This document shows, one piece after another, positions 1,462-63,593 of a stretch of DNA of 64,000 nt; position 1 is the first letter of the stretch; every line of letters begins with the position of its first letter. The notes beneath the pieces are model-generated. The model saw only the letters and a program-made list of their open reading frames with translations, ran no database searches and was not told the DNA's origin. The DNA lies in IMG/VR virus record IMGVR_UViG_3300031236_000003, positions 1-64,000 of that record; one strand, given 5' to 3'. The DNA comes from a virus. The position numbers were made by a program, and so were the translations under genes.

Positions 1462-3531
1462 CTACCCGTTGCAGATTAGCAGCAAGGCGACGTTAACGCC
1501 GGTGCCCTGCTCTTTGAACGTTCCGGCTGGCAAGTCTTCCCACCATCCGCCGGAGTTCTCAGCCATCGGCTTTAGAATCTCCCGCTGGCGTGGACCATTG
1601 GCACAGAGCGCGACCAAGCGGCCACCGTCGGCAAGGAATCCGGCGGCGTGCTTGATGTGCTTTATATCTGAGCCGTTCTCAAAAGGCGGATTCATAACGA
1701 TGCGGTCAAACTTGCCGAGGTTGCCGTTCTGTTCCAGGAAATCGCCGGGTGTTACTCGATCACCGCCAAGGCAATCATGGAAGGCTAAACGGTGGGCCAA
1801 CGTCGGATTGATTTCAACGGCTGTGATAGCAGACCGGCCTGCGTTGCCTGACAGCATGGCTCGGCGGATCGCGTCCACAATTGCCCCGGTGCCTGCGCTC
1901 GGTTCGAGTACCTCCTGGCCGTCTTGTATGTCGGCTTCGCCTACCATGCGGTCGGCAAGCTCGGCAGGCGTCGGGAAGAGTTGAGGCGCGGAGACAACGC
2001 GAACGCCGGTCTTGAGCGCATTCTCTAGCGCCTTGAATGGCGCTGCGGCTGCGTCCTGCTCGGCTCTGGCCGCGTTCTGCGCCTGCAGCCGCTCGGTTCT
2101 TGCCGTCAATTCTTCCAGGTCCGTTTGAGGTTGGAACAGATGCGCATTTGTTGCCGGTGGCGCGATGAGTTCTTTTTGTGGCGGATCTTTGCGCTTGGCG
2201 TCGGCGATGAAAACGCCGTAATAGCTATGACGGCGATTCCATTGCTTTGTTTGATCTTCCGGCGCGGTCGGCTGCGGCAGTTGCAGGTAAACACCGATAG
2301 CGTGCCGGATGCGGTGCGCGCCTGCGGTCTCGGTCTCCTTAACAACCTTGCTGCCCCGGAAGTCGCTCGGAATCTTCTTCCATTCGGCCTCGGTGCAACT
2401 CGCGAAGCCTTCGCCGGAATAGTTGCACATGGGCGGAATTTTCAGAGCTGCGGCTACTTCTGCGGCGCGCTCGTCGGTCGGCGCTTGGTAATCCTTGATT
2501 TCCTCAATCCCGCAAACCTTGCAATATCGCCGGCTGGTGGTAACGCTGATTTGTTTACCGTCCTTCTTGTTGACCTTGAGAATCGTTACCCATTCCTGCC
2601 CGATCAGGACGCGGCCGCCAACCTTCAGATCGTGTTTTTCGGCGATCAACCCGCCGCCCTCGTCGAGCATAGCGCGTTCGTAGGCGATCCGGTTTTCATA
2701 GTGGGTAATCCAGCGCTGCAGGATGGGTATATGCCTCTCTAGGCGAGGCAGCGCTAAATCCCGCGCCTGCTCCGGTGTAATGATGCCGGTGTCCATCGTA
2801 TCTCCCAGCGCGGACCACAAATCCATTTCGCCCTCGTATTTGCTCGCGCCTTCGACTCGTGGGTATTTGTCGAGCGGAAAGCAGAAAGAGGCGTGATGAT
2901 AATTTGTGATGCGTTTGCAGTATGCCCAGGTCAGCGGTTCAAATTTCCATTGCTTGATTTGTTCGCGGACTTCCAGCAGTGTTTTGTCCGACTTGCGATA
3001 ATCAGCCTCGATTCCCTTGATGCGGCGCGCTCGAACGTCTGGCCGTTCCTTGTACTTGGCATTGCGGAGAGCTCCGGCGGCGCGATAGGTCCAATATTCG
3101 GAAGCCTTCCAGCAGTCAACGGCCTTTCTCATACCGTTCTGGATTCGCTCCGCGTCTTTGCGTGCGTGCTTCTCGGAGTGATGTCCGACGAGAATAGGCT
3201 GGCCTAGCGGGATTCCATCGCAGATGCGTGACACTTGATCGTGGGCGCGGCTGGCCTCGGCTGCTTTCCGCTCGCTCAGATTCTCCAGCCGTTCGGCTTT
3301 CGCCTCGGCGCGGTCTACTAAGCTGGTGTCTTCGTCGCCGATCTCGCCGCACATCTCCAGGAGGAAATCCTCACGCGACGGCGACCAGGCGGGAGCAACA
3401 AACAATTCTTGCTTTGGTGCCCAGATGAAACCGTTGGCCTTAACGCGGTCGTATTCGTCTTTCGGCAGACGGTACGCCGGATAAAGCCTCAGCTTGTTGT
3501 CTTCGGGTGAATAGGTTGCGCTGTGTTCCAT
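1462..3531 (-). CDS. DUF3560 protein fused to an N6-adenine-type DNA methyltransferase
   Basis: The product is 689 residues. The N-terminal third (YSPEDNKLRLYPAYRLP, then a charged coiled segment around residues 60-200) matches the DUF3560 type found on plasmids and phages. The C-terminal 170 residues are a class I methyltransferase: motif I LEPSAGTGAIVDAI near 543, an acidic AVEINP strand, and catalytic NPPF near 614. The NPPF motif indicates amino-methylation of DNA, most likely adenine. In phages such enzymes can protect viral DNA from restriction. It is the largest gene of the leftward operon; AGGAGATTAAAGAGAA precedes the ATG. Confidence 0.88.
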   Translation of the reverse strand: MEHSATYSPEDNKLRLYPAYRLPKDEYDRVKANGFIWAPKQELFVAPAWSPSREDFLLEMCGEIGDEDTSLVDRAEAKAERLENLSERKAAEASRAHDQVSRICDGIPLGQPILVGHHSEKHARKDAERIQNGMRKAVDCWKASEYWTYRAAGALRNAKYKERPDVRARRIKGIEADYRKSDKTLLEVREQIKQWKFEPLTWAYCKRITNYHHASFCFPLDKYPRVEGASKYEGEMDLWSALGDTMDTGIITPEQARDLALPRLERHIPILQRWITHYENRIAYERAMLDEGGGLIAEKHDLKVGGRVLIGQEWVTILKVNKKDGKQISVTTSRRYCKVCGIEEIKDYQAPTDERAAEVAAALKIPPMCNYSGEGFASCTEAEWKKIPSDFRGSKVVKETETAGAHRIRHAIGVYLQLPQPTAPEDQTKQWNRRHSYYGVFIADAKRKDPPQKELIAPPATNAHLFQPQTDLEELTARTERLQAQNAARAEQDAAAAPFKALENALKTGVRVVSAPQLFPTPAELADRMVGEADIQDGQEVLEPSAGTGAIVDAIRRAMLSGNAGRSAITAVEINPTLAHRLAFHDCLGGDRVTPGDFLEQNGNLGKFDRIVMNPPFENGSDIKHIKHAAGFLADGGRLVALCANGPRQREILKPMAENSGGWWEDLPAGTFKEQGTGVNVALLLICNG

Positions 3532-4916: not shown

Positions 4917-5092
4917 AGCATCCACCGTTGCGCCAGCGAGCAACCCGCCGGTATCGCCCCACAATAAACATTCCACGTCATACGCGCCGAGCGCCCGTAG
5001 ACGCCACGCGAATCGTAAAGGTAGGAGAATGCACCATGCGTCAAGCCGGAGCGGACGTAGGCTATCAGCGTCGCTTGCGTCAGCGGCTCCAT
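4913..5092 (-). CDS. Small hypothetical protein (59 aa)
   Basis: The product starts MEPLTQATLIAYVRSGLTHG. Its ATG overlaps the TAA of the upstream gene (TAATG) and its own stop overlaps the next ATG (ATGA), so it is the middle of a three-gene coupled set. GAGAGGTGCAG lies upstream. No recognised domain. Confidence 0.65.
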   Translation of the reverse strand: MEPLTQATLIAYVRSGLTHGAFSYLYDSRGVYGRSARMTWNVYCGAIPAGCSLAQRWML

Positions 5093-5523
5093 TACTGCAC
5101 CTCTCCAGACGAAGCTACAACCCGGCCAGACTGCCACACTTCCCAGCCAATATTGCGTAGCCGGTCAAACGCCGCCGCGCCTCGCGCCTCTTCCAGCGTC
5201 TCAAATGTGCCGTGGGCCGTGCCATCGTCGGCCAGAAGCAGGAACGGCGTAAGCAACTCGCCGACGCGATTGCACGTCTCGCACTCGCCCTCATCGTAGC
5301 TACCACACGCGCACACTGCCACGTCCGCCGCCGCCTTATCCGCGCAATACCGGCAATTGCCTGCTTCGTGCTCGTCGTGAGTCTCGCAGATCACGCCAAC
5401 GTGCACCGGGCCATACTCCGCCACCCAATCCGTAGCGTCCTGGAATGCCTGAGCTTGCGCCGAGGTCTCAAACGTCTCACCCTCTACGCCCTCGCCGACT
5501 TGATTAAAGATGCTGTATCTCAT
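5092..5523 (-). CDS. Cys-rich hypothetical protein, first gene of the leftward operon
   Basis: The product is 143 residues starting MRYSIFNQVGEGVEG. GGGAGAAGGAAAGCG precedes the ATG at 5523. The centre has HEAGNCRYCADK and CACGSYDEGECETC, which look like two zinc knuckles; an N-terminal FETSAQAQAFQDATDWV and a C-terminal FETLEEARGAAAFDRL may be a duplicated motif. It is followed directly by two coupled small genes. Confidence 0.72.
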   Translation of the reverse strand: MRYSIFNQVGEGVEGETFETSAQAQAFQDATDWVAEYGPVHVGVICETHDEHEAGNCRYCADKAAADVAVCACGSYDEGECETCNRVGELLTPFLLLADDGTAHGTFETLEEARGAAAFDRLRNIGWEVWQSGRVVASSGEVQ

Positions 5524-5553: not shown

Positions 5554-5566
5554 CTGCAAGCGTTAT
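5554..5566 (-). promoter_or_regulatory. CGCTTGCAG motif downstream of the left promoter
   Basis: On the minus strand this reads ATAACGCTTGCAG, the same motif found at other promoters of the window. Here it lies just downstream of the predicted transcription start instead of forming a -35, so it behaves like an operator position. A related forward copy, TACGCTTGCAG, is at 5761-5771 with no -10 at a suitable distance. Confidence 0.5.
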
Positions 5567-5611: not shown

Positions 5612-5847
5612 GAAGAAAATTTGTGTGGACATATAGACACACCGCGCAACTAAGAGAATCGACCTGCAACTCATTGATTCCATTGACGAACACCCCATCG
5701 AACACCTTGCCAGCTAGGAATTACCAATTAGTCAATAGGCAGAAGCCGTGTTTCGCGCTGTACGCTTGCAGACGGCCGAATAGTGCGCAGGTTGACCGGC
5801 TGGAATCGCAGCTTAGACCGACCCATTCGTACCTGGTAGTAGCAGGA

Positions 5848-6084: not shown

Positions 6085-6336
6085 AGATATACGATACGGT
6101 CCTCCGGGAACAATGCGTATCGGCATCGACGCCGGACGCAGCCCCCATTTTCGGCGGTCGGACCCCTAGACTGACGATGCATCCCCGGACGACTTGCCCC
6201 GCCGCGCGCCGGACTCCGATCCGCCCCGAGCGCGCGCAAGGGTACCCCCTCGACCTCGCGCCGTCGCTCCGCGACCAACCATTCCCACATAAATTTTCCG
6301 CAGCCTCGTTGCCCTGTTCTGTTGTCCCAAAAAATC

Positions 6337-6388
6337 TTGTGACGTTTTCACAAAACGCTTGATTTGGGAAATTGGAACGTGCTATTGT
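6337..6388 (+). promoter_or_regulatory. Rightward promoter with inverted-repeat operator
   Basis: TTGTGA-CGTTT-TCACAA (6337-6353) is a perfect 6-bp inverted repeat. It abuts ACGCTTGATT, whose TTGATT (6359-6364) is 18 bp from TATTGT (6383-6388). The first ATG follows 7 bases later at 6396, so the transcript would be nearly leaderless. The stretch 6130-6336 upstream holds no gene that I can support. Confidence 0.5.
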
Positions 6389-11111: not shown

Positions 11112-11140
11112 TTGCAACCAGAGCCAGCGGCGCATACACT
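11112..11140 (+). promoter_or_regulatory. Rightward promoter for the packaging operon
   Basis: TTGCAA (11112-11117) and TACACT (11135-11140) are separated by 17 bp. The ATG at 11148 follows 7 bases after the -10, which predicts a leaderless transcript. The -10 merges into TACACTTGCAG, the same string found before the portal gene. It lies back to back with the leftward promoter at 11065-11092. Confidence 0.55.
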
Positions 11141-31507: not shown

Positions 31508-31514
31508 ATAACGC

Positions 31515-31543
31515 TTGCACTGGAAGGGGTGATAGGTTTACTC
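31515..31543 (+). promoter_or_regulatory. Promoter of the accessory cassette with flanking inverted motif
   Basis: TTGCAC (31515-31520) is 17 bp from TTACTC (31538-31543). The -35 is within AACGCTTGCAC and the -10 runs into TCTGCAAGCG (31542-31551), an inverted copy of CGCTTGCAGA. The same arrangement occurs at 62194-62229, so an operator spanning the promoter is likely. Confidence 0.6.
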
Positions 31544-31582
31544 TGCAAGCGTGGCGAAACCACCAGACGAGAGGAAAATCAC

Positions 31583-31861
31583 ATGAACTTACCCGACTTG
31601 AAGTTGGAGGCTATCCACTTCACCACAGCTCCCACCAAGAGCCAAATCACCAATACGCTCCGCTCAATCCACGATTTTCTTGGAAAACTCGGCGGTGCGC
31701 TCATCCTCGACGGCAGCTACTCGATTGCCGATCCGCCGATGGGCGCCCTCTTCAATGGCTCGATCCAGTTGAGGCAGGCGCTGGACGGGTTCGATAATGG
31801 CCCGAACGCGCAAGGCCTATCCGTCCCGCAGATGGCTCCGCAGGTGATGAGGCCGCGCTAG
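31583..31861 (+). CDS. Hypothetical protein (92 aa)
   Basis: The product starts MNLPDLKLEAIHFTTAPTKS and ends with a flexible Pro/Gln/Met-rich tail. GAGGAAAATCAC precedes the ATG. It contains GALILDGSYSIADPPMGALF. It is the first gene of a cassette whose members overlap by start and stop codons. No family recognised. Confidence 0.62.
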   Translation: MNLPDLKLEAIHFTTAPTKSQITNTLRSIHDFLGKLGGALILDGSYSIADPPMGALFNGSIQLRQALDGFDNGPNAQGLSVPQMAPQVMRPR

Positions 31862-47572: not shown

Positions 47573-47578
47573 AAACGC

Positions 47579-47607
47579 TTGCAGAAAACCTCCGCGTGTA
47601 GCAGAAT
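47579..47607 (+). promoter_or_regulatory. Promoter after the giant gene
   Basis: TTGCAG (47579-47584) is 17 bp from CAGAAT (47602-47607) and lies in AAAACGCTTGCAGAA. Transcription from it would begin near 47614, only a few bases before a terminator hairpin and then a tRNA. Confidence 0.5.
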
Positions 47608-48048: not shown

Positions 48049-48729
48049 ATGCCTGACGAAACCGTTGCAAGCACCCCCGCCGAGCCCGCCACCCCAGTAA
48101 CCCCGGTCGCTCCCGTTTCTCCTATTGCGCCTGTTCCGGTTGAAGCCGTGACCGCAGAACCCGGATTTTTCCCGGCCCCTGGCATCTTCAATGCCCCCGT
48201 CGCCGTGACTATGAGCGCGGCCGGCCCCGAAGTGGCCATCAACTACACGACCGACGGCACGGAACCCACCACGAGTTCGCCCGGCTACACCGGCCCGTTT
48301 GTTCTCGGTACGACCACGACCGTGAAGGCAATTGCGACGGCTCCGGATCACCTGCCCAGCCCTGTCGTCTCGGCACAGTACGCGGTGAGCGTGATCCAGT
48401 CGGCACCCGCGCCAGCGGCAAACACCACGACCGCAGAGAAGATCGGCAACGAAGTGGCAGCGGGCGTACAGCGCGCGGAAGTGATGGCCAGCGGCGCTCT
48501 GGATGCTACGGGCGCGTTTGCGCAGACGGTTGAGACGGAAGTGGTCAACGCGAAGGCAGCGCTGGCGCATCTGGAGACCAGTTCTAACGCTGGTGCGGCC
48601 GGGACGATAGTCCAGATCGCGATCAGCCGCTTCGCTGGCGTGATCGCAACGCTGGAGGCTGCACTCGGCATTCATCGGGCGACGACTGCACCTCCGCCGC
48701 CTCCGCCGGCCACGACCGAAACGAAATAA
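48049..48729 (+). CDS. Protein with chitobiase-C-like Ig fold
   Basis: The product is 226 residues. A Pro/Thr-rich N-terminus is followed by PGFFPAPGIFNAPVAVTMSA and INYTTDGTEPTTSSPGYTGP, then VKAIATAPDHLPSPVVSAQY, which is the chitobiase/beta-hexosaminidase C-terminal fold (residues 38-115), often a carbohydrate-binding or spacer domain. The C-terminal 90 residues are helical and resemble the protein at 49269. AAGAGGAAATCTCC precedes the ATG. Confidence 0.75.
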   Translation: MPDETVASTPAEPATPVTPVAPVSPIAPVPVEAVTAEPGFFPAPGIFNAPVAVTMSAAGPEVAINYTTDGTEPTTSSPGYTGPFVLGTTTTVKAIATAPDHLPSPVVSAQYAVSVIQSAPAPAANTTTAEKIGNEVAAGVQRAEVMASGALDATGAFAQTVETEVVNAKAALAHLETSSNAGAAGTIVQIAISRFAGVIATLEAALGIHRATTAPPPPPPATTETK

Positions 48730-48786: not shown

Positions 48787-48815
48787 TTGACGCGGGATGC
48801 TGCAAGCGTGATACT
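48787..48815 (+). promoter_or_regulatory. Promoter of the 48822 gene
   Basis: TTGACG (48787-48792) is 17 bp from GATACT (48810-48815). The ATG follows 6 bases later, predicting a leaderless message. The spacer contains CTGCAAGCG (48800-48808), an inverted copy of the recurring CGCTTGCAG motif, so repression at the spacer is plausible. Confidence 0.6.
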
Positions 48816-48821
48816 GGAAAA

Positions 48822-49259
48822 ATGAAGAAGCGCGCGGGACTTGAACAAGGGCTACCGTTCATGCTTGGGACGGATGAGATTCCACCGCCGTTGCGCCGTC
48901 CGTGGCAAATGTGGAGTACCAGCAGCGACCCTTATCAGAATGGTTTGATTCAATTCGAGTTCACGGAAGAAGGTCTCGCGGTTGGATGGTTTCCAGATGC
49001 GAAGCAACTCATTCCGTGGCACGAATTGGCATGGGGGGCCGGGACTAAATCTCCCGATCTAAACGGCGAAGTGGAATGGGTCAGAGAGCAAGCCCAGGCG
49101 GAAGGCTATCGACTCGCCAAGAAGCAGTTTATCGAAGACATGCGCGGCAAGGTCACAAAGATAGGCTTGATGTTGATCGAAACCGACAATCCATTCCTCG
49201 CGAAGTACGCGGAAAAACTCAAGGAACTAATTGTAGAGACCGAAGCCTCCCTGGTTTGA
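48822..49259 (+). CDS. Hypothetical protein (145 aa)
   Basis: The product starts MKKRAGLEQGLPFMLGTDEI. The middle, QNGLIQFEFTEEGLAVGWFP, is beta-rich and the last 60 residues are helical (RLAKKQFIEDMRGKVTKIGL). The predicted leaderless start is 6 bases after the -10, with no Shine-Dalgarno. No family recognised. Confidence 0.68.
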   Translation: MKKRAGLEQGLPFMLGTDEIPPPLRRPWQMWSTSSDPYQNGLIQFEFTEEGLAVGWFPDAKQLIPWHELAWGAGTKSPDLNGEVEWVREQAQAEGYRLAKKQFIEDMRGKVTKIGLMLIETDNPFLAKYAEKLKELIVETEASLV

Positions 49260-50745: not shown

Positions 50746-50818
50746 GACGAGATGGACCTACAAGCGCGGAGTCAAGACCCGGAAGAAGAAGGTCCGCCGG
50801 CTGCCGCCTCGCCGGTAG
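50732..50818 (+). CDS. Basic micropeptide, MARTK family copy 2 (28 aa)
   Basis: The product begins MARTKTRWTYKRGVKTRKKK and ends VRRLPPRR. It shares MARTK-RWTY with the micropeptide at 50071. GATGGAGCGTC precedes the ATG. It overlaps the preceding gene by 14 bp and the end of the convergent regulator gene by 47 bp. Half of its residues are Lys or Arg, so nucleic-acid binding is likely. Confidence 0.5.
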   Translation: MARTKTRWTYKRGVKTRKKKVRRLPPRR

Positions 50819-51854
50819 CCTTGCTCCGATTCTTGCTTCCCAGCGGCCGCCCGAGTTTCTTCGGAGCCTTAGCCGCCTGATCCGCACGATACTTGTCCCA
50901 CCGTTCGCGCGCCCTCCGCTTGAACATCGCCGTTTGTTTCGCGCGCCACTCTGGATCTCGCCACAATTTTCTGAGATGCGCTCCTTTCGGTCCTCGGTGG
51001 CGCTGCTTTGGTCCCGGCGTCATGCGCCCGGCGGCAATATCTCGCATCTCCTCGAATAGTTCGCGTATCTTCTTGCTGGCGTCGCTCATCTTCGCTCTGG
51101 GAGAGGTCTCGATGGTCTTGATGCAGTCCGCAATCGTCTCGGCATCCTTGTACGCTTTCCAAAACTCGGCTGATAGCATTGTGCGCCGCGGCTCCGGCAT
51201 GACGACGATCTGCTTGATGAGTTCTTCGAGTTCCTGACTATAGGATTTCTTGATGACAGACTTCGGAAACTCGCACCGCATATTCACCATCAGCACCATC
51301 AGCGCCTGGCGATCGGTGCGCGTGGGCGACCGCAGCCGGTTCTGCGCGTGGACAAACGCTCGGTAGCCGGCCAAGCTCAGGAGCTCGCCGAACACCTCGT
51401 CTGAATAGATTGGGATTTCGTAGTAGAGGCACAGGTCGCGAATCTCGTCGATTTTCATGCCGAGGAATTCGGCCAGTTCGGGTAATGGCAGCAGAGGCCG
51501 CTTGCGGAGCGGCGCAAGCATCGTTCGCAGCCAGTTGAGTGCATCCGGGGATGGTCGGGCCACGACAGTCTCATGCAGTGCCTGGGACGGGCGCATGACG
51601 CGCAGGTAGCCGTTTTGGATCAGGGTCTCGATGCGTTGCCAGCGAACGTTGCCGAGTTCTACGGCCAGTTGCTTGACCGTGATCTGGTCACTCGCCGGGA
51701 CCGGACTCTTTCGCACCAGCAGCCCCGGCAGCTCGTTCTCGGGCGTATTTGTGTCGAAGCTTCGCAATGTCTGAGAAATAGGTAGGCGATTGATTTCGTT
51801 TGGTTGCATTGCCACCGATCCGCCCGATTTCTGGAAAAAATTCCTCATCATCAA
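50772..51854 (-). CDS. Putative DNA-binding regulator (360 aa)
   Basis: ITVKQLAVELGNVRWQRIET (about 59-78) and LLPLPELAEFLGMKIDEIRD (about 121-140) look like two helix-turn-helix units. A helical middle part follows. The C-terminus is strongly basic, with the AT-hook-like GRPLGSKNRSK near 340. The start is uncertain: ATG at 51854 has GGGAGAAG 12 bases upstream, and 51809 is an alternative. It is divergent from recT across a palindrome, the position expected for a lysogeny regulator. A shorter frame overlaps its first 167 bp. Confidence 0.65.
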   Translation of the reverse strand: MMMRNFFQKSGGSVAMQPNEINRLPISQTLRSFDTNTPENELPGLLVRKSPVPASDQITVKQLAVELGNVRWQRIETLIQNGYLRVMRPSQALHETVVARPSPDALNWLRTMLAPLRKRPLLPLPELAEFLGMKIDEIRDLCLYYEIPIYSDEVFGELLSLAGYRAFVHAQNRLRSPTRTDRQALMVLMVNMRCEFPKSVIKKSYSQELEELIKQIVVMPEPRRTMLSAEFWKAYKDAETIADCIKTIETSPRAKMSDASKKIRELFEEMRDIAAGRMTPGPKQRHRGPKGAHLRKLWRDPEWRAKQTAMFKRRARERWDKYRADQAAKAPKKLGRPLGSKNRSKATGEAAAGGPSSSGS

Positions 51855-51924
51855 TCGGAATCAACATCTTCTCCCGCTGTTTCTTGGCTGGCTTCGGTGA
51901 TTCGGTCTTCTCGCTAGTAGCCAT
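51688..51924 (-). CDS. Leaderless first gene of the regulator unit (78 aa)
   Basis: The product starts MATSEKTESPKPAKKQREKM and has EIGRIGGNATKRNQSPTYFS. The ATG lies 6 bases after a -10. It overlaps the 360-residue regulator in another frame over 167 bp, which is unusual. Either two proteins are made, or the two frames are parts of one regulator joined by a frameshift near 51690-51850. Confidence 0.55.
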   Translation of the reverse strand: MATSEKTESPKPAKKQREKMLIPIDDEEFFPEIGRIGGNATKRNQSPTYFSDIAKLRHKYARERAAGAAGAKESGPGE

Positions 51925-51930
51925 GGGCGG

Positions 51931-51959
51931 ATTTTACCGCTTTGATGAAGATTCTGCAA
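51931..51959 (-). promoter_or_regulatory. Leftward promoter of the regulator
   Basis: On the minus strand TTGCAG (51959-51954) is 17 bp from TAAAAT (51936-51931). The ATG at 51924 follows 6 bases later, so the message should be leaderless. The -35 is inside the left arm of the palindrome. Confidence 0.7.
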
Positions 51960-51981
51960 GCGTTAAATAACGCTTGCAGAA
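51952..51981. promoter_or_regulatory. 30-bp palindromic operator between regulator and recT
   Basis: Two perfect 14-bp arms, TTCTGCAAGCGTTA (51952-51965) and TAACGCTTGCAGAA (51968-51981), are separated by AA. Each arm supplies the -35 hexamer of one of two divergent promoters, so a dimer bound here would control both. Confidence 0.85.
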
Positions 51982-52039: not shown

Positions 52040-53002
52040 ATGGCCGCAGAACTTGCCGTAGTCCAGACCTCCCCGCAACTCACCAGACCTGAAACCTTTG
52101 CGCCGCGAACCATTGCGGAGGCGATGGAGTTCGCCAAGATGTTGATCGAGTCCGGCTTCCTCCCGAAAGCGTATGTCGGGAAACCGCCGTCGGCAATAGT
52201 CGTCGCGCTTCAGCTAGGGCTTGAGCTGAATCTTCAGCCAATGCAGGCTCTCCAGTCAATTGCCCTTATCAATAACACCCCCGCTGTTTTTGGAGACACA
52301 GCCCTCGCGCTTATTAAGGCGCACCCCGCCTTCGAGTATGTTCGCGAAACCATAGACGAAGCCAGCATGACGGCGACGTGCGAAGTCAAACGGCGCGGCG
52401 AACCTACCGTGATACGCACCTTCTCTCAGAAGGATGCGGCGACTGCCGGGCTGTGGGGAAAGGCTGGACCCTGGACAAATTATCCGAAGCGAATGCTTCA
52501 GATGCGCGCGCGCGGCTTCGCTATTCGCGACCAATTCCCTGATGCGCTCAAGGGTATCGTGACCGCAGAGGAAGCGCAGGACTATCCCGGCCAGACCGTC
52601 GAGGGTGACCGGCCTACCGAGTCCGCTCCCGCGCAGACCACCGCGAAGTCAGCAGAAGAACCCACCATCGGCCAACCCGGCGGCAGCGAATTCTTCAAGC
52701 TCTACAAGCTCTCCGGATGGACCAGCGATGACGCGAAAGCATGGCTCCGCGACAATCTCAAGATCGGCCAGCCTCACAACGACAAGAACTCGAAGGACAT
52801 CCTCGTTGGCGACAAGGATAAGGCCTTCACCTGGGCGAAGACACATGCCCCGGTTCGTGTTGCGGCACACGAGAAGTTCGCGGCACTCGGCTTCAGCGAT
52901 GATGAGCGGCGGAAGTTCGTCGAGGACCGCAAGATCAACTGGGTTGAGATCGACAGAGAGCTTGGCGCGGAGATCGACAAGCGTAACTCCCAAGAGCAGT
53001 AA
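52040..53002 (+). CDS. recT: RecT-family single-strand annealing protein
   Basis: The product is 320 residues. TIAEAMEFAKMLIESGFLPK, KPPSAIVVALQLGLELNLQP, MQALQSIALINNTPAVFGD, LWGKAGPWTNYPKRMLQMRA and RGFAIRDQFPDALKG form the RecT core. It anneals complementary single strands for phage recombination and DNA ends repair. After residue 190 there is a Pro/Thr linker and a C-terminal helical domain not typical of RecT. It opens the rightward recombination-replication operon. Confidence 0.92.
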   Translation: MAAELAVVQTSPQLTRPETFAPRTIAEAMEFAKMLIESGFLPKAYVGKPPSAIVVALQLGLELNLQPMQALQSIALINNTPAVFGDTALALIKAHPAFEYVRETIDEASMTATCEVKRRGEPTVIRTFSQKDAATAGLWGKAGPWTNYPKRMLQMRARGFAIRDQFPDALKGIVTAEEAQDYPGQTVEGDRPTESAPAQTTAKSAEEPTIGQPGGSEFFKLYKLSGWTSDDAKAWLRDNLKIGQPHNDKNSKDILVGDKDKAFTWAKTHAPVRVAAHEKFAALGFSDDERRKFVEDRKINWVEIDRELGAEIDKRNSQEQ

Positions 53003-54597: not shown

Positions 54598-55241
54598 TTC
54601 AGATACCCGGTGGCACATACAGCGACGATCCTCATGAATACCGTGACGAGCAGGGCAAGTGGATACCCGGCCTGACGAACACATTCAAACTCTGCAGCAT
54701 GAGCGATTTCAGCGGTGCCGATCCAGACGATATGGCGAATGCGGCGAGGCGCGGAACTGCCTTGCATGAACTGGTCGAAGTCTGGAACCGCGAGGGAGAC
54801 TGCGATCCGTCTTGGATCACGCCAGAACTAGACGGATATTTTACTGGCTACCGGAAGTTTTTGATCGACACTGGCTTTGTCTGCGATCCGGAGTGGACGG
54901 AGAGGCCTCTGATTGCGACCATCAGGGGCATGCGTCTAGGAATGAAGCCGGACGTGTTTGGCAAACTGCGGCGAGACAAGGCTATCGTTGAAATCAAGGC
55001 GGCCAGCAGCGTCCAGGCAACGTGGAGCGTGCAGACGGGGATGCAGGAACTTGGCATCCACGCTTCAAATAATGTAGGCCGGGTGCGGAGATTTGCACTG
55101 CAACTCTTCAGGGATGGCCGGTATAAGTTGCACGAGCACGTCAATCATCAGCAGGATGAAGCGATTGGAATTGCGGCGCTGCGGCTTGTTTGGTGGCGGC
55201 TTGAGCAGGGCCAGAAATTGTGGCTCGCCGCTAAACTTTAA
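54594..55241 (+). CDS. RecB-like PD-(D/E)xK nuclease
   Basis: The product is 215 residues starting at TTG (TTGA overlap). GMKPDVFGKL gives the acidic residue, KAIVEIKAAS supplies the E-x-K pair near residue 130, and VQTGMQELG the following Q motif. This is the RecB nuclease pattern. NAARRGTALHELVEVW near the N-terminus is the typical upstream helix with its His. With recT nearby it is a good candidate for the partner exonuclease that makes single strands. Confidence 0.85.
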   Translation: MIQIPGGTYSDDPHEYRDEQGKWIPGLTNTFKLCSMSDFSGADPDDMANAARRGTALHELVEVWNREGDCDPSWITPELDGYFTGYRKFLIDTGFVCDPEWTERPLIATIRGMRLGMKPDVFGKLRRDKAIVEIKAASSVQATWSVQTGMQELGIHASNNVGRVRRFALQLFRDGRYKLHEHVNHQQDEAIGIAALRLVWWRLEQGQKLWLAAKL

Positions 55242-59959: not shown

Positions 59960-60196
59960 ATGCAAGACGAAGTGGTATCTGGAGTCTACGATATTCTGGC
60001 GAGCAATTATCTGGTTGACGCGAACACTCTGCAAGCGTCACAATTAGTACGCGACCTTGATTTGGACAGCATTGAACTCGTTCAACTCGGCATGGATCTC
60101 GAAGATAAGTTTGGCGTGGAGATTCAGGACGGCGATATCCGCGCAACATCCACAATCGAAGACGTGATCGGCCTGATTCGCAGGCTGCTACCCTAA
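59960..60196 (+). CDS. Acyl carrier protein
   Basis: The product is 78 residues with the four-helix ACP pattern. RDLDLDSIELVQL provides Ser37 in a D-S-x-E/L context as the phosphopantetheine site, and GVEIQDGDIRATSTIEDVIG the third helix. It begins three bases after the helicase stop, with GGAGGTAGCA upstream. No acyltransferase or synthase lies nearby, so it would have to use host enzymes. An ACP in a phage replication operon is unusual. Confidence 0.88.
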   Translation: MQDEVVSGVYDILASNYLVDANTLQASQLVRDLDLDSIELVQLGMDLEDKFGVEIQDGDIRATSTIEDVIGLIRRLLP

Positions 60197-62186: not shown

Positions 62187-62193
62187 ATAACGC

Positions 62194-62229
62194 TTGCAGA
62201 AGTCGCTCCCCCGGTGTAATCTGCAAGCG
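62194..62229 (+). promoter_or_regulatory. Promoter flanked by an inverted CGCTTGCAGA pair
   Basis: TTGCAG (62194-62199) is 17 bp from TAATCT (62217-62222). CGCTTGCAGA (62191-62200) and its exact inverse TCTGCAAGCG (62220-62229) flank the spacer, placing the two halves at the -35 and just at the -10. It drives the Cys-rich protein and integrase. Confidence 0.65.
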
Positions 62230-62246
62230 TATCTGAAAGGTGATTC

Positions 62247-62450: not shown

Positions 62451-63593
62451 ATGCCCAGAACCTCATTTCAGCAAGGCTCCGTAGTCCGCGTATCCCGCAA
62501 GAGCGGCGATGCGTGGAGATTTCGTTGGCGCGAAAACGGCACTCAGCGCAGCGAGTGGATTGGGACGGTGAAGCAGTTACCGTCCCGCGCCCAGGCCGAG
62601 AAAGCCGCGCAGCGATTCCGCCAGCAGGCAAACTCCGGCATCGAAGTCATCACCATGGCCGATCTCATTGCGAAGTTCTGGCAGGAAGCGGCGCCGGAAC
62701 GCGAGACGACCGCGCACTCGTACCGCAGCATCTTCAAGCGGATCGAGGCCGAGTTCGGCAGTCTACGCGTGGACCAGTTCTGCCGCGAGGTAATGCGCGT
62801 CGAGCAGTGGCTGAAGGAATTGACGGTCATTGGACGGCACCCAAAGCCCGGCGTGAAGCCGCTGGTGAGCGACCTGTACCGCTCCCAGGTGAGGAACCTG
62901 CTGCACTTGCTGATCGAGAAGGCGATGCTTTGGGGGAATGTGCAGGTCGACCGGAATCCCATGGATTTAGTTCGCCTGAAGGGCAGCGCACGCGCCAAGG
63001 AAATCCAGACGCTGACCCCTGAGCAGTACGGCCAGCTTGTCAACGACCCAGAACTGCCGGAGATGGTGCGAGTGTTGATCCAGTTGTTGGCTGGGCTCGG
63101 ACTTCGCATCTCTGAGGGCTTGGGACTTCGCTGGTCAGACATCGACTTCGAATCCGGTACGATCCAGATCAACCGTAGCATGGTCCACGGCCAGGCGAAC
63201 GACACGAAGACGGCTAGCTCGAAGACGGCGCTTCCCTTGCATGAGCGCCTAGTGGACGTGCTGCGCTGGTGGCATGCGCGCGCGCCGAAGTCGGCTTGGG
63301 TGTTTTGCTCGGAGCGGACCGGCGCGCCTTATGACCGGGATTATCTTCGCTCGGAGTATCTGGCTCCGGCCGGCAAGCGGATCGGCGTAGAGGGGCTTGG
63401 CTGGCACTGCCTGCGCCACTCGTATCGAGCTATGCTGCGCGAAAGTGGTGCTTCCCTGGAAGACCAGAAGAGTCTGATGCGGCACTCAAAGTTGGCTACG
63501 ACCGTCGATACTTACGGTGGCCGCGACAGCGTTGAGCGGTTGAGACCCATGAACCAGAAAATTGTCGAGATGCTGCCGAGGAGGAGTGCATGA
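62451..63593 (+). CDS. int: Tyrosine recombinase (integrase)
   Basis: The product is 380 residues. An N-terminal SAM-like/arm domain spans about 1-170. The catalytic domain has Arg in LAGLGLRISEGLGLRW (about 218), Lys in DTKTASSKTALPL (about 248), HxxR as HCLRHSYR (about 320), His in LMRHSKLATT (about 344) and the Tyr nucleophile in VDTYGG (about 354). All five catalytic positions are visible. It integrates the phage genome by site-specific recombination; no attachment site could be identified here. GGAAAGGAAAGCG precedes the ATG. Confidence 0.95.
   Translation: MPRTSFQQGSVVRVSRKSGDAWRFRWRENGTQRSEWIGTVKQLPSRAQAEKAAQRFRQQANSGIEVITMADLIAKFWQEAAPERETTAHSYRSIFKRIEAEFGSLRVDQFCREVMRVEQWLKELTVIGRHPKPGVKPLVSDLYRSQVRNLLHLLIEKAMLWGNVQVDRNPMDLVRLKGSARAKEIQTLTPEQYGQLVNDPELPEMVRVLIQLLAGLGLRISEGLGLRWSDIDFESGTIQINRSMVHGQANDTKTASSKTALPLHERLVDVLRWWHARAPKSAWVFCSERTGAPYDRDYLRSEYLAPAGKRIGVEGLGWHCLRHSYRAMLRESGASLEDQKSLMRHSKLATTVDTYGGRDSVERLRPMNQKIVEMLPRRSA

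Follow-up and report, generated by a model that had tools for sequence, protein, structure and literature searches.

A 30-bp palindrome separates a leftward regulator operon from the rightward recT gene in this phage genome, and the word that forms its arms recurs elsewhere along the DNA. The locus raises the question of what this word is for: whether it marks the binding sites of one factor acting on all modules of the phage, as the initial annotation proposed, or whether, in the alternative offered there, its TTGCAG is simply the phage's favourite -35 box. The window analysed here spans positions 1-64000 of a virus record of 92,923 bases, with genes called by a simple script whose calls are approximate, especially past 64 kb. 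The features around the divide are the following:

50772-51716, minus strand: candidate repressor of about 314 aa, GTG start probably near 51716, in a frame open to 51854
51688-51924, minus strand: small basic protein (78 aa) encoded by the gene that opens the regulator operon, with a conserved F-x-x-I/L-G-x-x-G-G motif
51952-51981: back-to-back site pair at the regulator/recT divide, a 14-bp perfect inverted repeat with a 2-bp centre
51954-51963, minus strand: site ACGCTTGCAG over the regulator -35 (TTGCAG), with -10 TAAAAT at 51931-51936 and ATG at 51924
51970-51979, plus strand: site ACGCTTGCAG toward recT, in TTGCAG-N17-TAACGT with a weak -10
52040-53002, plus strand: RecT-like single-strand annealing protein (phrog_561, 1.3e-40), first gene of the early rightward block

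The palindrome was found as described, reading TTCTGCAAGCGTTA-AA-TAACGCTTGCAGAA with two perfect 14-bp arms, and a -10 does lie exactly 17 bp from each TTGCAG, a good one on the regulator side and a weak one on the recT side. No other perfect inverted repeat of the window combines arms of at least 12 bp with a gap of at most 20, and six Markov-simulated sequences yielded none of that kind; with arms of at least 11, only 62190-62230 joins it. The regulator had been taken for a single 50772-51924 product, but this span holds two overlapping frames that are out of register, one of 78 aa (51924..51688) and one of 360 aa (51854..50772).

When the counts of all words in the window were compared with an order-3 Markov expectation, ACGCTTGCAG (10 copies vs. 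0.2 expected) was the top word apart from ribosome-site words, with only the ribosome-binding-site word AAGGAAAGGAAA reaching comparable enrichment; ACGCTTGCAGA occurs 8 times vs. 0.05 expected. The exact 9-bp core ACGCTTGCA is present in 11 copies, 10 of them intergenic, giving very unequal densities of 10 in 8.2 kb of intergenic DNA vs. 1 in 55.8 kb of coding DNA, and letter-permuted versions of the motif averaged 0.08 intergenic copies with a maximum of 1. On the whole 93-kb record there are 12 core sites (11 intergenic), in mixed orientation (5 plus, 7 minus). The recurrence of the word, and its nearly complete restriction to DNA between genes, are confirmed and are stronger than first claimed. 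No paper linking the word to a phage operator came up in a literature search, the ten listed of 254 papers that contain its letters being unrelated. As to the ribosome-site words, the very strong extended form AAGGAAAGGAAA occurs 6 times vs. 0.009 expected in the whole window and GAAAGGAAA 13 times; the extended word also precedes recT and the integrase gene in the relatives introduced below.

Exact copies of CGCTTGCAG are located at 5554(-), 5763(+), 31543(-), 47576(+) and 48800(-) in the left and middle parts of the window and at 51954(-), 51971(+), 60029(-), 62191(+) and 62221(-) in the right part; a further copy lies outside it at 91310(-), where the core ACGCTTGCA at 91311 is the twelfth. 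Among the sites listed initially, 31511-31520 ends in C (CGCTTGCAC), one mismatch to the 9-mer, while keeping the core intact; the supposed variant at 5761 is itself an exact copy (5763, plus strand), and the list had omitted 60029, an exact copy within a gene. The remaining proposed variants differ by one or two bases (AACGCTTGAT at 6354, CACTTGCAG at 11136 and 15037, ACGGTTGCAC at 55241) and have no individual support, because intergenic one-mismatch sites are only weakly enriched (5 observed vs. 1.8 expected, a level matched by 7% of permuted motifs). Beyond the divide, the sites in the window and the integrase gene are:

5554-5563, minus strand: lone site, some 30 bp before the ATG (5523) of a leftward gene (5092-5523)
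5762-5771, plus strand: single intergenic site, an exact copy
31511-31552: facing pair upstream of a conserved 92-aa gene (31583-31861), with matching sites in relatives
47575-47584, plus strand: single site 3 bp past the stop codon of a 3245-aa gene
48800-48809, minus strand: single site in the spacer of TTGACG-N17-GATACT, just past a terminator, with the gene at 48822 following
60029-60038, minus strand: site internal to the acyl-carrier-protein gene (59960-60196); the related phage G009 keeps it as DNA but in a different frame
62190-62230: facing pair over the integrase operon promoter (TTGCAG-N17-TAATCT)
62451-63593, plus strand: tyrosine integrase of 380 aa, with relatives 61-65% identical

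Related phages were reached through the terminase and through a DNA pattern search for tandem site pairs. The terminase search gave eight contigs, 52-76% identical. One of them, G003 (70 kb), has the same divergent recT/regulator arrangement (recT 52%, regulator 32% identical), and an unbiased word count on it put the same word on top, as CACGCTTGCAA; its top 9-mer is ACGCTTGCA (8 copies vs. 0.5 expected, 8/8 intergenic). Another, G009 (38 kb; integrase 61%, recT 54%, regulator 41% identical), was found by the search for tandem copies and carries 6 sites, 5 of them intergenic. The three sites of G006 and the two of G010 are all intergenic. Conservation thus extends beyond the -35 hexamer into related phages, with one systematic difference: G003 and G009 over-use ACGCTTGCA followed by A, whereas the unit in the analysed phage is ACGCTTGCA followed by G. 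Wider searches were less productive: scanning viral contigs with a 14-mer gave chance-level matches, scans for the analysed phage's own pair geometries gave no clear relative, and tblastn with the regulator of the window or of G009 found no match in 50,697 phage records. Many matches to the tandem pattern proved to be repeats of 27-bp period in coding DNA, unrelated to the sites. A separate 112-kb virus record, G011 (L254), has several TTGCAAGCGTTTA repeats between predicted genes and, in the stretch searched, no relative of the studied proteins; these repeats are possibly a separate regulon with a similar word. Terminase and integrase profile scans of genome contigs found no host, and the only annotated relatives of the portal protein are from phages of the acidobacterium Tunturiibacter, a weak host hint at 23% identity.

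The sites recur at the same places in these genomes, and this set of places is conserved in relatives with regulators that are only 31-41% identical. Site pairs lie at the integrase promoter in the analysed phage, G003, G009 and G010; before the 92-aa gene in the analysed phage, G003 and G006, where G009 has one exact site and a variant; and at the regulator/recT divide in the analysed phage and G003, where G009 has one exact and one near-exact site, those on the recT side lying about 0.4 kb upstream of the recT start with other sequence between. The promoter linked to the terminator has one site in each of three phages (48801, G003 51004 and G009 16146), and the left end of G003 has a site at 6107 that may be compared with 5554 here. 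The acyl-carrier-protein gene carries a site in the analysed phage and in G009 in different reading frames, and this site has therefore been kept as DNA rather than as protein. (That gene, a PF00550 member at 59960-60196, directly follows a DnaB-like helicase gene and is kept in G003, G009 and G010; the 92-aa protein of 31583-31861 belongs to an unknown family, lies between structural genes and has sites preceding its gene in four phages, and is possibly an accessory gene under repressor control.)

The arrangement of paired sites is far less constant than their location. At matching loci the pairs are back-to-back, facing or tandem, with different spacings, and single sites are common, half of the places holding just one. 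The core persists while the geometry changes, which argues that each site is an independent unit, and the recognised unit would therefore be a short asymmetric site and not the palindromic operator originally envisaged. On this comparison of sequences the conserved unit is an asymmetric word of 9-10 bp, and the palindrome at 51952-51981 is one arrangement of two such words. Partition sites also include multiple dispersed inverted or direct pairs, and the repeats could on that ground be read as centromere-like or initiator repeats serving partition or replication instead of as transcription operators. We see only the slightest chance of this, given that no partition gene occurs among the proteins examined, that single sites directly adjoin -10 boxes and lysogeny-controlled genes, and that the integrase indicates chromosomal maintenance.

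Where the sites lie within promoters bears on whether TTGCAG is merely a preferred -35 box, the rest of the word being promoter context. TTGCAG or TTGCAA does make a plausible -35, with a spacer of 16-18 bp, at the regulator, the integrase and a few other sites, and at promoters such as the regulator's own the operator and -35 ideas overlap because the site contains the -35. Nevertheless, we regard this explanation as very improbable. The over-represented word has an invariant ACGC ahead of the -35; at 48801, G003 51004 and G009 16146 the site instead falls within the 17-bp spacer, immediately ahead of or in contact with a GATACT/GATAAT -10, in promoters whose separate -35 is TTGACG or TTGCAA, and the recT promoter of G003 likewise has its site in the spacer; all 8 sites of G003 point one way, opposed to nearly all the genes that they precede; and one site lies inside a gene. 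What we found is not the conservation limited to a hexamer at a fixed distance from the -10 that a sigma-70 -35 box alone would give. Promoter-like scores of at least 10 surround 61% of the sites vs. 18% of copies of the word implanted at random intergenic positions (p = 7e-7), and the promoter signal therefore does not come solely from the TTGC within the word. At 5762 and G003 6107 we found no convincing promoter.

In these promoters a site covers the -35, occupies the spacer next to the -10, or lies at +1; the second site of the 62190-62230 pair spans the -10 to about +1. Such positions suggest that the sites mediate repression rather than activation. At the regulator gene itself, the layout around the 51954 site recurs in G003, G009 and G006, with a -10 box that ends 6-7 bases before the ATG in all four phages (51922-51936 here), which implies a leaderless message, and with TTGCAG or TTGCAA preceding the -10 by 17-18 bases. 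In three of the phages the word lies over this -35, a placement of the autoregulatory type.

Which protein would read these sites? The regulator operon adjoins sites in all three phages with a complete region; at none of 80 other RecT loci is there a regulator relative or a site upstream of recT. The larger product of the operon, the candidate repressor, is predicted to have two tandem MerR/excisionase-like winged helices at its N-terminus and a basic C-terminal tail, and its three family members align across the whole N-terminal half. AlphaFold2 modelled residues 1-132 as two consecutive E-HH-EE-H units with a mean pLDDT of 86.5, and most of the C-terminal half at low confidence. With Foldseek against the PDB, single units resembled MerR-like domains (RacA, BldC) at E-values above 0.01 and the pair of units had TraN among its top matches, weakly (E 0.035-0.08); whole-length superposition with these fold matches is poor because the domain spacing differs. 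Matches of the candidate in a viral library are largely helix-turn-helix and excisionase proteins. The tandem winged-helix fold is a confident prediction. Pfam offers no family for the protein beyond weak helix-turn-helix and excisionase hints, a single-sequence search with the regulator gave no match, and no CI-like repressor was present among 20 small proteins checked. Interferon and transporter matches from a profile search of PDB sequences were judged spurious.

The relatives allow two other readers to be weighed. A host transcription factor whose regulon the phages borrowed would account for a core common to phages with diverged regulators, and for G006, which keeps three exact sites on an incomplete record that yielded no relative of the winged-helix protein. 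We nonetheless consider a host factor rather improbable: the base after the core differs (G vs. A), as expected for co-evolving phage repressors, and a conserved regulator operon of the phages lies next to the sites. The second candidate is the small first-gene protein (51688-51924), which could bind the sites alone or together with the winged-helix protein. It has relatives in G003, G009 and G006, its gene being conserved in 4/4 phages with that region, and in G006 (L228:498-1090) it is kept (59% identical to that of G003) alongside intact sites where a recognisable winged-helix gene is absent; the gene is followed there only by a short C-terminal-like remnant (AAGLSSGS). We hold this to be unlikely, in that the protein has no recognisable DNA-binding domain except a weak AT-hook match and is highly variable in length, and in that the regulator-promoter site of G006 has decayed (ACGC changed to CATC, TTGCAA kept), as expected after loss of the reader protein. 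That decay also fits an operator superimposed on a promoter, but is suggestive only, because the other G006 sites are intact.

Taken together, these comparisons of sequence lead us to conclude that the repeats are probably the dispersed, asymmetric operators through which a repressor of this temperate phage acts, the best candidate for it being the larger protein encoded divergently from recT. The original proposal of one factor for all modules is in that sense probably right for several modules, with the protein corrected from the single 50772-51924 product. Acting as a monomer, the larger product would bind a site with both tandem winged helices, one to each part of the asymmetric sequence, and once bound it would lie over the -35, the spacer by the -10 or the transcription start and thereby block polymerase. 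In a lysogen, the early recombination genes, the integrase and accessory genes would be shut off, and the leaderless promoter of the repressor would be limited by its own product. The isolated sites, one inside a gene (60029) and one just past a gene (47575), may be elongation roadblocks, like stoperators. Counting against this reading are the three exact sites of G006, where no winged-helix relative was found on the incomplete record, the interval of about 0.4 kb between sites and recT in G009, the sites at which no convincing promoter was found, and the weak fold matches.

The closest known parallel is the repressor system of Cluster A mycobacteriophages (L5, TipsytheTRex), which uses many short asymmetric operators/stoperators, more than 20 sites, and in which the L5-type stoperators have been proposed to block elongation (PMC9283540, PMC6550527). 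As in Cluster A, short asymmetric copies are numerous across the genome of the analysed phage, at promoters and in DNA between genes, and one of them lies at the promoter of the candidate repressor; that protein is predicted to have two DNA-binding domains per chain, and related phages have sites that resemble one another without being identical. Unlike Cluster A, its candidate has predicted tandem MerR/excisionase-like winged helices, with no homologue, such as L5 Rep, found by tblastn among 50,697 phage records; there are 12 sites rather than more than 20; and their orientation is mixed. Cluster A sites are predominantly oriented with transcription; one orientation prevails in G003 (8/8) and G009 (5/6), facing against the downstream genes. 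Most of the sites also lie within promoters: where stoperators would mostly lie away from them, we find many in promoter-like sequence and few candidates elsewhere (60029, 47575). The system would be best filed, by analogy, as an operator/stoperator-like immunity system outside the Cluster A family, with a protein that appears unrelated by the searches made and with most sites promoter-bound.

For the protein, the nearest comparison is TraN of plasmid pIP501, a repressor that controls its own gene, is built as a monomer of two winged helices and resembles MerR regulators and excisionases (PMC10877727). The candidate is likewise predicted to have two winged helices of this type per chain, and TraN is among its top structural matches, although a profile search of PDB sequences gave no sequence match to it. 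Unlike the candidate, TraN is a plasmid regulator with two binding places and no dispersed set, and lacks the long C-terminal part. Each predicted domain also resembles BldC and RacA (2.0-3.3 angstrom over 50-59 residues), which are single-domain DNA binders, unlike the two fused domains here. The layout of the divide recalls lambda CI, whose gene is divergent from an early lytic gene and has a leaderless mRNA, with operators overlapping both promoters; here, too, a regulator diverges from an early gene, its mRNA is by implication leaderless, and sites lie over both promoters. The sites differ from those of lambda CI in being singles or variable pairs instead of dyads, so that a palindromic operator with fixed half-site spacing is not what matching loci show across the phages, and the predicted protein has another fold, with no peptidase domain found.

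More tentatively, and with somewhat less confidence than doubt, we propose that the candidate may be a phage immunity repressor of a new class, a monomer with two fused MerR/excisionase-type winged helices. It would be expressed together with a small basic partner on a leaderless, autoregulated transcript, would silence the prophage by way of about a dozen asymmetric operators/stoperators, and would have evolved independently of the actinobacteriophage system. Many short, one-sided immunity sites have so far been described mainly in actinobacteriophages, and if environmental phages have arrived at another, apparently unrelated solution, this would suggest repeated evolution of the design. Such a design would also give a readable signature of lysogeny circuits in uncultured phages, and the G or A after the core, together with the diverged regulators, would constitute a natural test of how repressor specificity and superinfection immunity change.

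Two minor observations concern other parts of the record. The proteins encoded at 48049-48729 and at 79731-83441 of the record have chitobiase C-terminal-like/Fn3-associated domains (CHB_HEX_C_1) and are possibly surface or host-recognition proteins. At 1462-3531 of the window, a leftward protein of 689 aa matches phage DNA methyltransferase families in its C-terminal part.
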